Below are positions 54,882 to 59,378 of a stretch of 62,738 nucleotides of DNA, in pieces. The stretch is from positions 1-62,738 of the forward strand of contig CANDBT010000028.1 in NCBI GenBank assembly GCA_947383005.1, written 5' to 3'. The notes below the pieces were generated by a model. That model was not told the origin of the DNA. It ran no database searches and saw only the letters and a list, made by a program, of their open reading frames with translations. The position numbers and the translations under genes are program-made. Each line of letters opens with the position of its first letter. Within the stretch, counting starts at the first letter, position 1. The DNA is from an uncultured bacterium. GTDB lineage: Bacteria; Bacillota; Clostridia; Lachnospirales; Lachnospiraceae.

Positions 54882-55001
54882 AAAATATTTTCTAAAAATA
54901 TTTTACTAAGTTTTTTTACAAATAAGGATAAAAACTCTTGTCAAATCAGTCCGATTATATTAAAATGTCCCTACAGAGATGATTTAAATATTAAAAAGGA
55001 G

Positions 55002-56411
55002 GTGGACATATTTAAGGACACCCTGTTATTTGGAAAATATCAACTCTGCAGGACATTAGGACATGGACAGAGCGGAACGGTATACTTAGCAAAGCATCTC
55101 AGTCTTGAAGAATACCGGGCAATTAAACAAATTCCCAAGACCAATACCGAATACAAACGTTTTCGCAGAGAAGCATTGATATTAAAATCTATACGCCATC
55201 CGGGAATACCTATCGTTTATGACCTGGAAGAGGATGAGCATTTTTGTTATATAATTGAAGAATTTTTAGAAGGAGATTCCCTATACGCCCTTGTTTCTCG
55301 CATGGGGCATTTTTCAAAGACAATGACGATCCAATATGGGATTCAGATTTGTCATCTGGTAAATACTTTGCATTCAGCAAGGCCCAATCCCATTTTATAT
55401 TTAGATTTACAACCTGAAAATCTGTTAATCTGTCATGATAGCGTAAAATTGGTGGATTTTGATCATGCAATCCATTTAAATGAGGCAGATCGTCTGACTA
55501 AGCGTTATGGAACCATCGGCTGTGCTGCTCCAGAACAATATACCGACGCTGTTCTTGATGAACGCACAGACATTTATGCCATCGGCGCCATTCTATACTA
55601 TATGTTGACCGGATATTTCCCGGAAAGTATGCCTTCCTATCCCAGAGAACAAATAGACCAATCTATGGCTTCGGTTATCCATCGTTGTCTGAAAAAAGAT
55701 ACCTGCCAACGTTATCAATCCGTGACCCAGTTATGTAAAAAATTGGAAAAACTACAAAAACAAATGAAAGCCAAAACACAGGATGTTCTGCAAAAAGATA
55801 TACCATCATCTCTGACTATCGCTGTTGCAGGATCCGCTTCCGGAACAGGGGCTACCCATATAGCAATAGGTTTGGCAGTCCGGTTAAGGGAGCATGGATT
55901 ATCCGTATTATATGAAGAAAAAAATAAATCCTGCACTGTAGGGCAAATGGCCAGCTATATGAATGCTTCTATGGATCGATATGGCATTTATCATATTTAT
56001 GGATTGCCCATGCTCCCTCAATATGGAAAAAGCATAAAGCTGGAATCCCATTCCTACCCTATAATTATCCAAGATTACGGCGCTTCTTATGAATTACTAT
56101 CTCACACTGAGGCTGATTACTATTTACTTGTCTGCGGAAGCAAGCCTTGGCAATGGGAAAGCGCCAAAAAAGCTGTTCAATTCCTGAAAAATCTTCCAGG
56201 AACAGCAATAATCTACAATCAGTTCTGCAGACAGTTTTCCTTTAAACTGCCTGTCCAGGCAAAAGATGCCGATGTTTTTTTAATGCCGAATTATTCCCAT
56301 CCATTTTATTATGGTAAATGTATAAAACAAGTTTATGAAGAAATATTTTTATCCTTAACCAGCAGAAGAACAGGAGGGATATTACAGAAATTTTTTGCCA
56401 AAAAGCAATAA
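55002..56411 (+). CDS. Ser/Thr protein kinase fused to degenerate MinD-like P-loop domain
   Basis: The 469-residue protein has a kinase domain (about 1-265): GHGQSG loop, AIK lysine at 42, the catalytic loop reads YLDLQPEN (HRD to YLD; the usual lysine is Q), DFG reads DFD, and APE is intact. It may be divergent in activity. From about 270 a MinD/CpaE-like domain follows with GSASGTGATH, a P-loop lacking the lysine. It has no membrane span. AGGAGG overlaps the nominal GTG; an ATA in frame six bases later is better spaced. It lies amid wall genes. Confidence 0.75.
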   Translation: MDIFKDTLLFGKYQLCRTLGHGQSGTVYLAKHLSLEEYRAIKQIPKTNTEYKRFRREALILKSIRHPGIPIVYDLEEDEHFCYIIEEFLEGDSLYALVSRMGHFSKTMTIQYGIQICHLVNTLHSARPNPILYLDLQPENLLICHDSVKLVDFDHAIHLNEADRLTKRYGTIGCAAPEQYTDAVLDERTDIYAIGAILYYMLTGYFPESMPSYPREQIDQSMASVIHRCLKKDTCQRYQSVTQLCKKLEKLQKQMKAKTQDVLQKDIPSSLTIAVAGSASGTGATHIAIGLAVRLREHGLSVLYEEKNKSCTVGQMASYMNASMDRYGIYHIYGLPMLPQYGKSIKLESHSYPIIIQDYGASYELLSHTEADYYLLVCGSKPWQWESAKKAVQFLKNLPGTAIIYNQFCRQFSFKLPVQAKDADVFLMPNYSHPFYYGKCIKQVYEEIFLSLTSRRTGGILQKFFAKKQ

Positions 56412-57001
56412 ATAGCAATTATGATAATTTTGGCAGAATCCGGACCGTAGGAATCATCGGTGCAGGCCGTCATACAGGCGTAACTCATTTGACCATTTGG
56501 CTGGCGAATTATCTTGCCGGTGTCTGCCAAAAAAAGACAGTTATTCTGGAGATGAATAACCATGGGGATTTTCAACGAATAGGAAGATTCTGCGGTGGTC
56601 TGACTTCCAAAAAAAACTTTTATCAAATTTTAGATGTGGATTACTATTCTCAGGCAAATGCAAAAAATTTTGCTGAATGCCTAAATGGGGATTATCACCA
56701 CATTCTTGTGGATTATGGGGAAATTACTGAACAAAATCTCTATGATTGCACACGCTGTAACAGAAAAATTATTGTTGGGTCATTAAGCGAATGGCAGGCA
56801 GAAGCATTTCTGGAATTCGCCGCATCAGAAAAGAAACGGGATACAAGCTGGAATTATGCTGCTGCTTTTGGCAGCGAGCAAACCAGAAAACAAATAGAAA
56901 AGTGTTTCCATATCCGTATATGGCGAATTCCCGGTTCCGTAGATGCTTTTACCATCAATCGCAATGACATAAACTTTTTTTCTGAATTTTTTCGTAATTA
57001 A
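56381..57001 (+). CDS. Second degenerate MinD-like P-loop protein; start codon missing
   Basis: The frame is open from 56339 to 57001 and is in the -1 frame relative to the kinase. Residues following the start zone read VGIIGAGRHTGVTHLTIWLA, a degenerate MinD/CpaE-type P-loop without lysine, then HILVDYGEI and KIIVGSLSEWQAE, which parallel the kinase's C-terminal domain. No ATG, GTG or TTG occurs before the P-loop. An ATT at 56381 lies three bases after AGGAGG and is used here as a placeholder. A -1 ribosomal frameshift from the kinase is the alternative. A TTG at 56489 would cut the P-loop off. Confidence 0.6.
   Translation: MTEIFCQKAINSNYDNFGRIRTVGIIGAGRHTGVTHLTIWLANYLAGVCQKKTVILEMNNHGDFQRIGRFCGGLTSKKNFYQILDVDYYSQANAKNFAECLNGDYHHILVDYGEITEQNLYDCTRCNRKIIVGSLSEWQAEAFLEFAASEKKRDTSWNYAAAFGSEQTRKQIEKCFHIRIWRIPGSVDAFTINRNDINFFSEFFRN
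56397..56434 (+). other. Stem-loop at the kinase stop codon, possible frameshift stimulator
   Basis: GCCAAAA (56397-56403) pairs with TTTTGGC (56428-56434) and encloses the kinase TAA at 56409. Directly upstream is TTTTTT (56391-56396) and, 13 bases before that, AGGAGG (56372-56377). This is the same set of parts as the dnaX -1 frameshift cassette (Shine-Dalgarno, slippery run, stem), although the run is A TTT TTT, not A AAA AAG. Confidence 0.4.
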
Positions 57002-57105
57002 CAGGCAACAGTACGGAGCAGGCAGGGTTCAAGCTTGAAAAGGAATATGTGTCACAGCTTAATCTTTTAGCATTTTCCCGCCTAAATTGGAAATTGGAGG
57101 GTTAC

Positions 57106-57438
57106 ATGAATAAAAAATACCGGCTTTCCGGAAAAAACAAAAAAGTTTTTCTTGATGGCCTGATGCAATACCACAGCAAAGGAATTGTCATTCTTATTGA
57201 CGGAGAAGAAACTGAACCTTCACAATGGGAAAAGATTCTGGAAATTTATGCGGATGGAAGTTTTTATATGGGAGATTATATTTTTCAAGATGAAATTTCT
57301 CCTCAAAACGAAAACAATTTACAAAATCAAACTCTTTTCGACAAGGTTTGTGAAAAACAAGAAGAATACCAGACAGAAAAGAGCAAATCACAGAAAAAAC
57401 TGGTAGAGATACGTTTTGACCGCGTTTACCACTATTAA
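57106..57438 (+). CDS. Hypothetical cytoplasmic protein, 110 aa
   Basis: The protein starts MNKKYRLSGKNKKVFLDGL with GGAGG six bases before the ATG; an open frame extends 19 codons up but lacks a site. The first half is a compact alpha/beta segment (GIVILIDGEETEPSQW, YADGSFYMGDYI) and the second half is charged and helical. No family was recognised. It follows the P-loop ORF by 105 bp. Confidence 0.55.
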   Translation: MNKKYRLSGKNKKVFLDGLMQYHSKGIVILIDGEETEPSQWEKILEIYADGSFYMGDYIFQDEISPQNENNLQNQTLFDKVCEKQEEYQTEKSKSQKKLVEIRFDRVYHY

Positions 57439-57716: not shown

Positions 57717-59378
57717 GTGAAAAGATTTTTTATGTCGCTGATAACATTGATCCTGATGATAGCGTTTCTCGCCGCTACCGCAATAGGATTTTTCTTATAT
57801 GAAAAATATAAGCCCTCCTCAGAACTGGCGGACCAAAATGAATGGTTTGGCGTTATTGGTGACAGAATTGCCATCATCCTGGACAATCAGCTTATTGATG
57901 ATGTAAAAGGACGATATATCGACAATGAAATCTATTTGCCCCTTCAATGGGTCAATGAAACATTAAACGAACGCTTTTATTGGGATAAAAGTGAAAAATT
58001 ACTGATTTACACCTTGCCTGAAGAAATCGTTTACGCTGACAGCTCTACCACAGGAAATAACGGAAAACCTCTTTTAATTGAACAAGAAGGCCAGGTATGG
58101 CTAATGGCAGGGTTGATTCTTAATTATACCAATATACGAATGGAAAAATTCGCCGATACGGAAATCAAAAGAATCTATATTGATACCAAATGGGAATCTG
58201 TCCCCATGGCTTGTGCTAAAAAAGAAGGAAAGTTACGGATAAAAGGTGGGATTAAAAGTTCCATATTGACCGAAATTGCACCAGGAGAGCCTTTGGAAAT
58301 CCTGGACATGATGGATAAATGGACTAAAGTACGAACACAAACCGGATATATAGGCTATATTCAAAATAAACTGCTTCAGGAAACAGAACCCCATTCCTTT
58401 ATCAGTACTTTTCAGCCCCCCATCTATACGAATCTTTCCCTTGGAGAACCTGTTTGCCTGGTATGGCACCAGGTATTTTCCCAACAGGCCAATGAAGCGA
58501 TGGCACAGCTCATGGCCAATACTAAAGGAGTCAATGTTATTGCACCTACTTGGTTTATGCTCACCGATAACCAAGGCAATTATGACTCTTTGGCAGATCG
58601 CAGCTATGTCGAAAAAGCTCATCAGATGGGTCTGCAGGTCTGGGCAACATTAGATAATTTTAATAAAGGAGACAATGTACAGTCGGAAATATTATTCGCT
58701 AACACTTCTGTACGAAAAAAACTAATCAATACCTTGCTGACCGACATAAAAACATATGGAATAGATGGGATTAACCTGGACATTGAAGGTATAAAAAAAG
58801 AAGCCGGTTCTCACTATGTACAATTTATCCGTGAACTTTCTGTCCTCTGTCGGAAGGAAGGAATTATTTTATCTGTGGATAATACTGTCCCTGCGGCACA
58901 TTCCTCCTTTTATAACCGCTCTGAACAGGGACAGGTTGTCGATTATGTGATCATTATGGCTTATGACGAACATCATGTCGGCGGTGATGCAGGAAGTGTT
59001 TCTTCTTTAGGTTATGTAAAAAAAGGCATTGAAGATACTTTGACTATGGTTCCTAAAGAAAAGTTGGTAATTGCTGTTCCATTTTATACCCGTCTGTGGG
59101 AACTGGAAGGAGGAGAAACCAAAGCTACGTCTATGGGAATACCTTCAGCAAAAAACTGGATTCAACAAAACAATATAAAATTAGACTGGCAAGAAGATTT
59201 AGGACAATATTATGGTCAGCTTCAAGACGGAAGCAAAACTTATCAGCTCTGGATGGAAGAAGAAACTTCCCTCAGCGCAAAAATGGATTTAATCTGGGAA
59301 AATGATTTGGCTGGTGTGGCCTGCTGGAAATTGGGTTTTGATACTCCGGAACTTTGGGGTATAGTTTCTCCAAAATAA
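57717..59378 (+). CDS. GH18 glycosyl hydrolase with SH3 and stalk domains, YaaH/YdhD-like
   Basis: The 553-residue protein has an N-terminal membrane anchor (about 5-27), a copper-amine-oxidase-N-like stalk domain (about 45-155), an SH3-type domain (KLRIKGGIKSSI to LLQETEP, about 170-225) and a GH18 barrel with DGINLDIEG (catalytic glutamate) and YVIIMAYDEHH. The layout fits spore-cortex or cell-wall glucosaminidases of the YaaH group. Start is GTG with GGAGG eight bases upstream. A terminator follows. Confidence 0.88.
   Translation: MKRFFMSLITLILMIAFLAATAIGFFLYEKYKPSSELADQNEWFGVIGDRIAIILDNQLIDDVKGRYIDNEIYLPLQWVNETLNERFYWDKSEKLLIYTLPEEIVYADSSTTGNNGKPLLIEQEGQVWLMAGLILNYTNIRMEKFADTEIKRIYIDTKWESVPMACAKKEGKLRIKGGIKSSILTEIAPGEPLEILDMMDKWTKVRTQTGYIGYIQNKLLQETEPHSFISTFQPPIYTNLSLGEPVCLVWHQVFSQQANEAMAQLMANTKGVNVIAPTWFMLTDNQGNYDSLADRSYVEKAHQMGLQVWATLDNFNKGDNVQSEILFANTSVRKKLINTLLTDIKTYGIDGINLDIEGIKKEAGSHYVQFIRELSVLCRKEGIILSVDNTVPAAHSSFYNRSEQGQVVDYVIIMAYDEHHVGGDAGSVSSLGYVKKGIEDTLTMVPKEKLVIAVPFYTRLWELEGGETKATSMGIPSAKNWIQQNNIKLDWQEDLGQYYGQLQDGSKTYQLWMEEETSLSAKMDLIWENDLAGVACWKLGFDTPELWGIVSPK

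Follow-up and report, generated by a model that had tools for sequence, protein, structure and literature searches.

A gene without a normal start codon downstream of a Lachnospiraceae Ser/Thr kinase: comparative evidence for non-canonical initiation behind a strong Shine-Dalgarno sequence

In a stretch of 62,738 nucleotides from an uncultured bacterium of the Lachnospiraceae (assembly GCA_947383005.1, contig CANDBT010000028.1, positions 1 to 62,738; hereafter the window), a Ser/Thr kinase gene with a C-terminal degenerate MinD-like domain (55002-56411, forward strand; Pkinase 7.7e-40; true start uncertain) is followed by a second open frame, orf2, which lies in the -1 frame relative to the kinase and is opened by the TGA at 56336-56338. 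A preliminary description of this DNA held that no ATG, GTG or TTG occurs between this stop and the P-loop-like motif, and the sequence agrees, the first canonical codon of the frame in the window being the TTG at 56489, in the helix past the motif. The locus thus raises the question of how orf2 is translated. Probably orf2 is a separate protein made from a non-canonical start at a fixed distance from a strong Shine-Dalgarno sequence, the genus-conserved AGGAGG located within the kinase gene (56372-56377, forward strand). When counted from the ACA that occupies the conserved start position (56384-56386, forward strand), 6 nt past AGGAGG, orf2 spans 56384-57001 of the forward strand. This reading is built on the sequence, its conservation, the reading frame, the exchange of ACG and ATG at one position and purifying selection.

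The orf2 product is a degenerate protein of the MinD/ParA fold and a paralogue of the C-terminal domain of the kinase. The coding nature of the frame, which had been claimed earlier, is borne out by dN/dS values of 0.12-0.34 in nine pairs, dS being near saturation in some of them; both genes are under purifying selection, with dN/dS of 0.08-0.34 for the two. Genus copies of orf2 share 44-60% identity. The parallel drawn previously between orf2 and the kinase C-terminal domain is recovered by BLASTP (E 2e-4) and by profile-profile comparison (probability 98.7, E 3e-16). Its designation as a P-loop ORF holds for the presence of a motif, of the GAGRxxGVTH type, and fails for the Walker lysine, which is absent in 19/19 aligned members. 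The protein has the SIMIBI fold (MinD/ParA/TadZ) and lacks the deviant Walker A motif with catalytic lysine of active MinD/ParA proteins. The locus differs from MinD/ParA/TadZ ATPases both in this replaced lysine and in carrying a second copy of the domain fused to the adjoining Ser/Thr kinase. The orf2 profile matched no solved structure in a sequence-based search, Pfam gave stray matches in only one or two of the 19 members and NCBIfam gave none for the window orf2. The adjacency of the genes and the homology of the two domains suggest a kinase-orf2 partnership, and it would be natural to suppose that the two MinD-like domains pair.

The genus sample comprised 24 genomes, 19 of which, window included, carry orf2. 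All but one of these 19 loci (18/19) retain the -1 frame, the exception being L066 (the same locus as L019). The preliminary description had asked that an indel be excluded, and this shared offset excludes it: since the -1 frame recurs in 18/19 loci, an indel is not the cause of the frame in the window. The window does come from a single assembly, which would leave room for an indel or assembly error; against this, the same frame and the same missing start recur in many assemblies, including those of strains D16-56 and 1XD21-29, and the dN/dS of 0.08-0.34 opposes a dying gene, so that artefact or decay is a scarcely credible explanation. By this comparison of sequences, the missing normal start of orf2 in the window is genuine and no artefact.

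The conserved element of the genus is a strong Shine-Dalgarno sequence at a proper distance from one codon position. The codon 6 nt past the Shine-Dalgarno is ACG in 13/19 loci, ATG in L062, GCA in L059 (where an ATG lies two codons further), GCG in L087 and ACA in the window, while L065 and L066 have an ATG 12 nt past it. The ACG is preceded by AGGAGG in 11 loci, by GGGAGG in L064 and by GGGGGG in L060, with duplex energies of -11.5 to -16.4 kcal/mol across the 13. The start codon of orf2 in the genus therefore appears not to be fixed, as the ACA, GCA and GCG loci indicate. A single scan across named genomes yielded 37 loci, and in the window and 7/37 relatives orf2 has no ATG, GTG or TTG before the P-loop. 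The same bases also encode a kinase peptide, mostly GG(I/V)LR. In the kinase frame, the first base of the start position serves as a wobble base, and in 15/17 loci it is A, a figure drawn from related loci that yields no clean probability; for comparison, A-ending codons make up 124/885 Leu and 90/485 Ile codons across 19 kinases, and the same degree of conservation is seen in 7/36 wobble columns further upstream in the kinase. L051 (strain D16-56) has an in-frame TAA immediately past AGGAGG, two codons ahead of the ACG, so orf2 translation in this strain begins at AAT, ACG or later.

The preliminary description placed a possible AUU start at the ATT 56381-56383 (forward strand), which is indeed found there, as are AGGAGG and TTTTTT at the positions it gave. 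Its proposal of a non-AUG start is supported, whereas the codon it chose differs from the conserved codon position. In favour of ATT, the window has no ACG, the same codon occurs at this position in L052, L056, L057, L059 and L061, and AUU is a known weak start (cvfC1, PMC13009471; also pcnB and E. coli infC). Against it, ATT lies merely 3 nt from AGGAGG, and TTT, GTT, ACT, CAT, TCT or AAT takes its place in other relatives. The start in the window is probably the ACA at 56384 or the adjacent ATT at 56381, and the latter, a variant of the non-canonical start rather than a competitor to it, may be regarded as a tentative choice, somewhat on the doubtful side.

A start at the downstream TTG 56489, with a non-coding frame upstream of it, is the choice of the ORF list and of the 99% identical public protein P0058, which by its sequence begins at the equivalent codon. 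With such a start the protein would lack its first strand and also the P-loop-like motif, which 19/19 members conserve, and in relatives gene callers choose other places with no common site, making this reading highly unlikely. Gene finders usually accept ATG, GTG and TTG alone, and the odd internal starts of public models follow from this. In an automated start comparison of seven public models, in which P0055 and P0058 were unmatched, the motif is lost in three (P0058, P0082 and P0077); P0082 (L053) starts 28 codons and P0077 (L064) 14 codons past the beginning of the motif, and P0007, P0011 and P0038 begin before it.

A programmed -1 frameshift, the other mechanism raised in the preliminary description, would yield a kinase-orf2 fusion alongside the short kinase. 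The retained -1 frame agrees with it, and so do the AGGAGG 13 nt ahead of the T6 run (56391-56396, forward strand) with a stem behind it, and kinase-frame heptamers near the junction in single relatives such as L055 and L056. The window overlap, in contrast, holds no kinase-frame heptamer of the X XXY YYZ type; the T6 run lies outside any canonical slippery heptamer, and the only one present, at about 56276, precedes the TGA at 56336. Heptamers near the junction of L052, L053, L055, L056, L060, L063, L014, L066 and L087 occur at differing places, with none common to the 19 loci. The GCCAAAA/TTTTGGC stem around the kinase stop had been correctly noticed and forms a hairpin (56393-56438, forward strand; -10.9 kcal/mol) with a z of -2.1 by dinucleotide shuffles, 9/200 of which fold as well. 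By simple shuffles in the 17 genus loci folded, the z of the junction hairpin is -3.25 in the window, -2.1 in L014 and -1.6 in L054; in the remaining 14 it does not stand out, and most of the 17 are without the hairpin. T-runs elsewhere in the genus reach 7 in L051 and 6 in L061. Stem and T-run are thus real in the window and no general feature of the 17 genus loci, just as the proposed check of relatives found the shared frame in 18/19 loci and no shared slippery run. A search for known RNA families at the junction gave one sub-threshold snoRNA-like match only. In addition, L066, L067, L068, L071 and L073 show a different frame relation, the genes are parted by stops in L067, L068 and L071, and the TAA of L051 directly follows AGGAGG. 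The dnaX gene is the comparison system for programmed -1 frameshifting; the locus resembles it in the -1 overlap and upstream Shine-Dalgarno-like sequence and departs from it in the missing heptamer, the unconserved stem and the stop-separated relatives. Taken together, the comparative evidence strongly favours non-canonical initiation, and frameshifting appears very unlikely.

Clades in which the genes do not overlap provide stronger evidence for the non-canonical start than the genus overlap. In L067, L068 and L071 the distance from the kinase end to an ACG codon is 24, 55 and 24 nt, with an in-frame stop 18, 18 and 24 nt upstream of the ACG, respectively. These loci read ACG A(A/G)A TTT (G/T)C(A/G); the corresponding codons of their sister L073 are ATG AGA TTT GCA. 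A later ATG, still ahead of the P-loop, lies 5 codons past the ACG in L068 and 12 codons past it in L071, leaving L067 alone in this clade without a canonical choice; the Shine-Dalgarno of the three is weaker (-11.1 to -12.6 kcal/mol) and is not AGGAGG. Similarly, a third clade pairs L077 (on one contig with L121), which has ACG and no canonical start, with its sister L084, which has ATG. An even sample of 397 family genomes contained orf2 at E 1e-20 in 60, and 58 of these loci were fetched (all except G000 and G009), three being contigs already in the set and counted once. Under the thresholds applied, the combined 94 loci divide into 55 canonical, 21 ACG (L079, at least, is wrongly placed in this class), 15 other and 3 single-ORF loci, and at least 11 changes of the ACG state are needed on the tree of this set. 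Further ACG codons lie at or near the best Shine-Dalgarno position in L120 and L140, and the sequences suggest other codons elsewhere: CTG in L159 and L163, ATA in L160, GCG in L131 and L132. Several loci of the 'other' class may be ordinary, with an ATG behind a weak Shine-Dalgarno. The 'fused' loci L150, L155 and L175 were left out as fusion evidence, since each may be no more than a kinase that carries its own C-terminal domain.

The recurrence of ACG and its exchange with ATG would also suit special decoding, in which the codon becomes a start through an initiator tRNA that reads ACG or through C-to-U editing of the transcript. This is extremely unlikely: no CGT-type initiator arm was found in a tRNA among 24 genus genomes, and such decoding would not explain the CTG, ATA or GCG suggested at other loci. 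The search used an exact initiator-type arm pattern that would miss a divergent tRNA and matched the normal CAT arm in only 15/24 genomes. The sole CGT-arm match, in G003, is not a tRNA, and in the window's own genome the CAT arm sits at the end of a contig, in which ARAGORN, applied to nine fetched stretches only, called no Met tRNA there. This genome contains 114 AGGAGG-N5-8-ACG sites versus 341 for a reversed-pattern control, and among 30 of the 114 inspected for ORF length and nearby starts no clear case of another ACG start was met.

The kinase gene shows a similar arrangement. Ahead of it stand a promoter-like stretch and AAGGAGGTGG, and its strong Shine-Dalgarno there, AAGGAGGT (54996-55003, forward strand), is overlapped by GTG 55002-55004, the only canonical candidate; this GTG is in frame with the kinase in 12/37 loci, and many relatives have it in another frame. 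In the interval from the preceding in-frame stop to the kinase domain, 12/36 relatives have no ATG, GTG or TTG, 15/36 have a canonical start with a weak Shine-Dalgarno only and 9/36 have a good site. Of the 58 family loci, 26 allowed the kinase start to be anchored: 5 of them are without a canonical start, 11 have one with a weak site and 10 one with a good site. The small downstream gene, with a normal ATG (57106-57438, forward strand), served as a control together with GH18 and amidase genes: no canonical start was lacking in any of them (0/35, 0/27 and 0/9), and a weak-site start only was found in 4/35, 0/27 and 5/9, respectively. By the same count orf2 has no canonical start ahead of its aligned part in 8/35 loci, one of the eight, L054, having a GTG 11 codons before the P-loop. 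Codons 5-7 nt past the kinase AGGAGG are often ATC, ATA or ATT, also GTC, TTC and others; the window has ATA at 55008-55010 (forward strand), 5 nt past AGGAGG, as an uncertain candidate. At 4-5 nt the codon is ATG in L063 and L068 and TTG in L084, and a TGA lies within a few bases behind the Shine-Dalgarno in L056, L067, L070, L079, L082 and L086. The codons in this column encode I, V or F, some of them differing from AUG at two bases, and because the candidates vary among relatives no single kinase start is named. An ATG or GTG further upstream, near the promoter, was judged by eye as a kinase start and rejected, its frame differing among relatives and being closed by stops in several loci, window included.

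Two further observations concern the region upstream of the kinase. In L056 an extra base relative to relatives shifts the frame and places a TGA directly behind the Shine-Dalgarno, which may reflect an error in the sequence or a start that really differs. The motif GAG(A/G)TG(A/G)T precedes the kinase Shine-Dalgarno in 29/37 loci (window 54976-54983), close behind a promoter-like TTG...TATATTARAAT, and in relatives its distance to the kinase domain is about 43-51 nt; it resembles the start of a tiny upstream ORF or a second 16S-complementary site. Downstream, TGTCAC occurs between orf2 and the next gene in 33/39 loci (in the window at 57050-57055, within 57002-57105), frequently in the form TGTGTCACGGC with CCTCC or CCTT after it, and in many loci within a long predicted hairpin. 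Rfam gave no match for this region in five loci and RNAalifold no pairs on 22 short cores; a new regulatory RNA or an operator is possible. Relatives of the small unassigned protein occur in 37/37 named loci and of the GH18/SH3 gene (57717-59378) in 35/37, which suggests an envelope-related gene group.

Under the proposed mechanism, the AGGAGG inside the kinase gene would set the orf2 start at a fixed distance, the usual start in the genus being ACG, 6 nt past it, and the kinase would likewise combine a near-perfect Shine-Dalgarno with no good ATG, GTG or TTG. The strong Shine-Dalgarno would recruit ribosomes and the poor codon would limit initiation, and selection for inefficient initiation would keep both proteins scarce. 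Poor initiation, more than any particular codon, seems to be the conserved trait; initiation at these codons, a low output and a purpose behind it are inferences. Protein amounts might then depend on how strictly ribosomes check the start codon. An operon acting as a start-codon stringency switch, with kinase and orf2 both read from near-cognate codons behind maximal Shine-Dalgarno sites and their levels following IF3 activity or another state of the initiation apparatus, is a bolder and rather unlikely extension; if true, the kinase pathway would respond to that state, and bacteria would have in ACG a genuine start codon that evolution maintains. Recurrent ACG and near-cognate codons beside a kinase of like habit would make it testable whether bacteria keep bad starts on purpose, and whether such genes sense initiation fidelity. 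The infC gene of the window genome (L118, G000:C44) reads ATT AGC GAT TTA ATG after GGAGG, with the ATG four codons on, and its ATT fits the AUU-type start known for infC, as in E. coli.

ACG starts occur in chloroplast genes, and organelle ACG starts are edited to AUG. Non-AUG starts of chloroplast genes are described as evolutionarily kept (PMC9845219). Chloroplast genes and orf2 have kept non-AUG starts in common and differ in that chloroplasts are organelles. Closer are bacterial cases reported in PMC13009471, where S. aureus infC (AUA), ccpN (AUA) and cvfC1 (AUU) combine a strong or extended Shine-Dalgarno, a conserved non-canonical start and low output. In poor medium the codons of cvfC1, ccpN and citZ reached about 10% of the AUG level, and that of ccpN up to 30% in rich medium. 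An AUU start is also known for E. coli pcnB. The literature searched contained no precedent for two adjacent genes so affected, nor for recurring ACG. The locus resembles S. aureus infC, ccpN and cvfC1 and E. coli pcnB and infC in joining a strong Shine-Dalgarno to a conserved non-canonical codon. Unlike them, it concerns two adjacent genes, the orf2 ACG appears in several clades and the codon differs among lineages.
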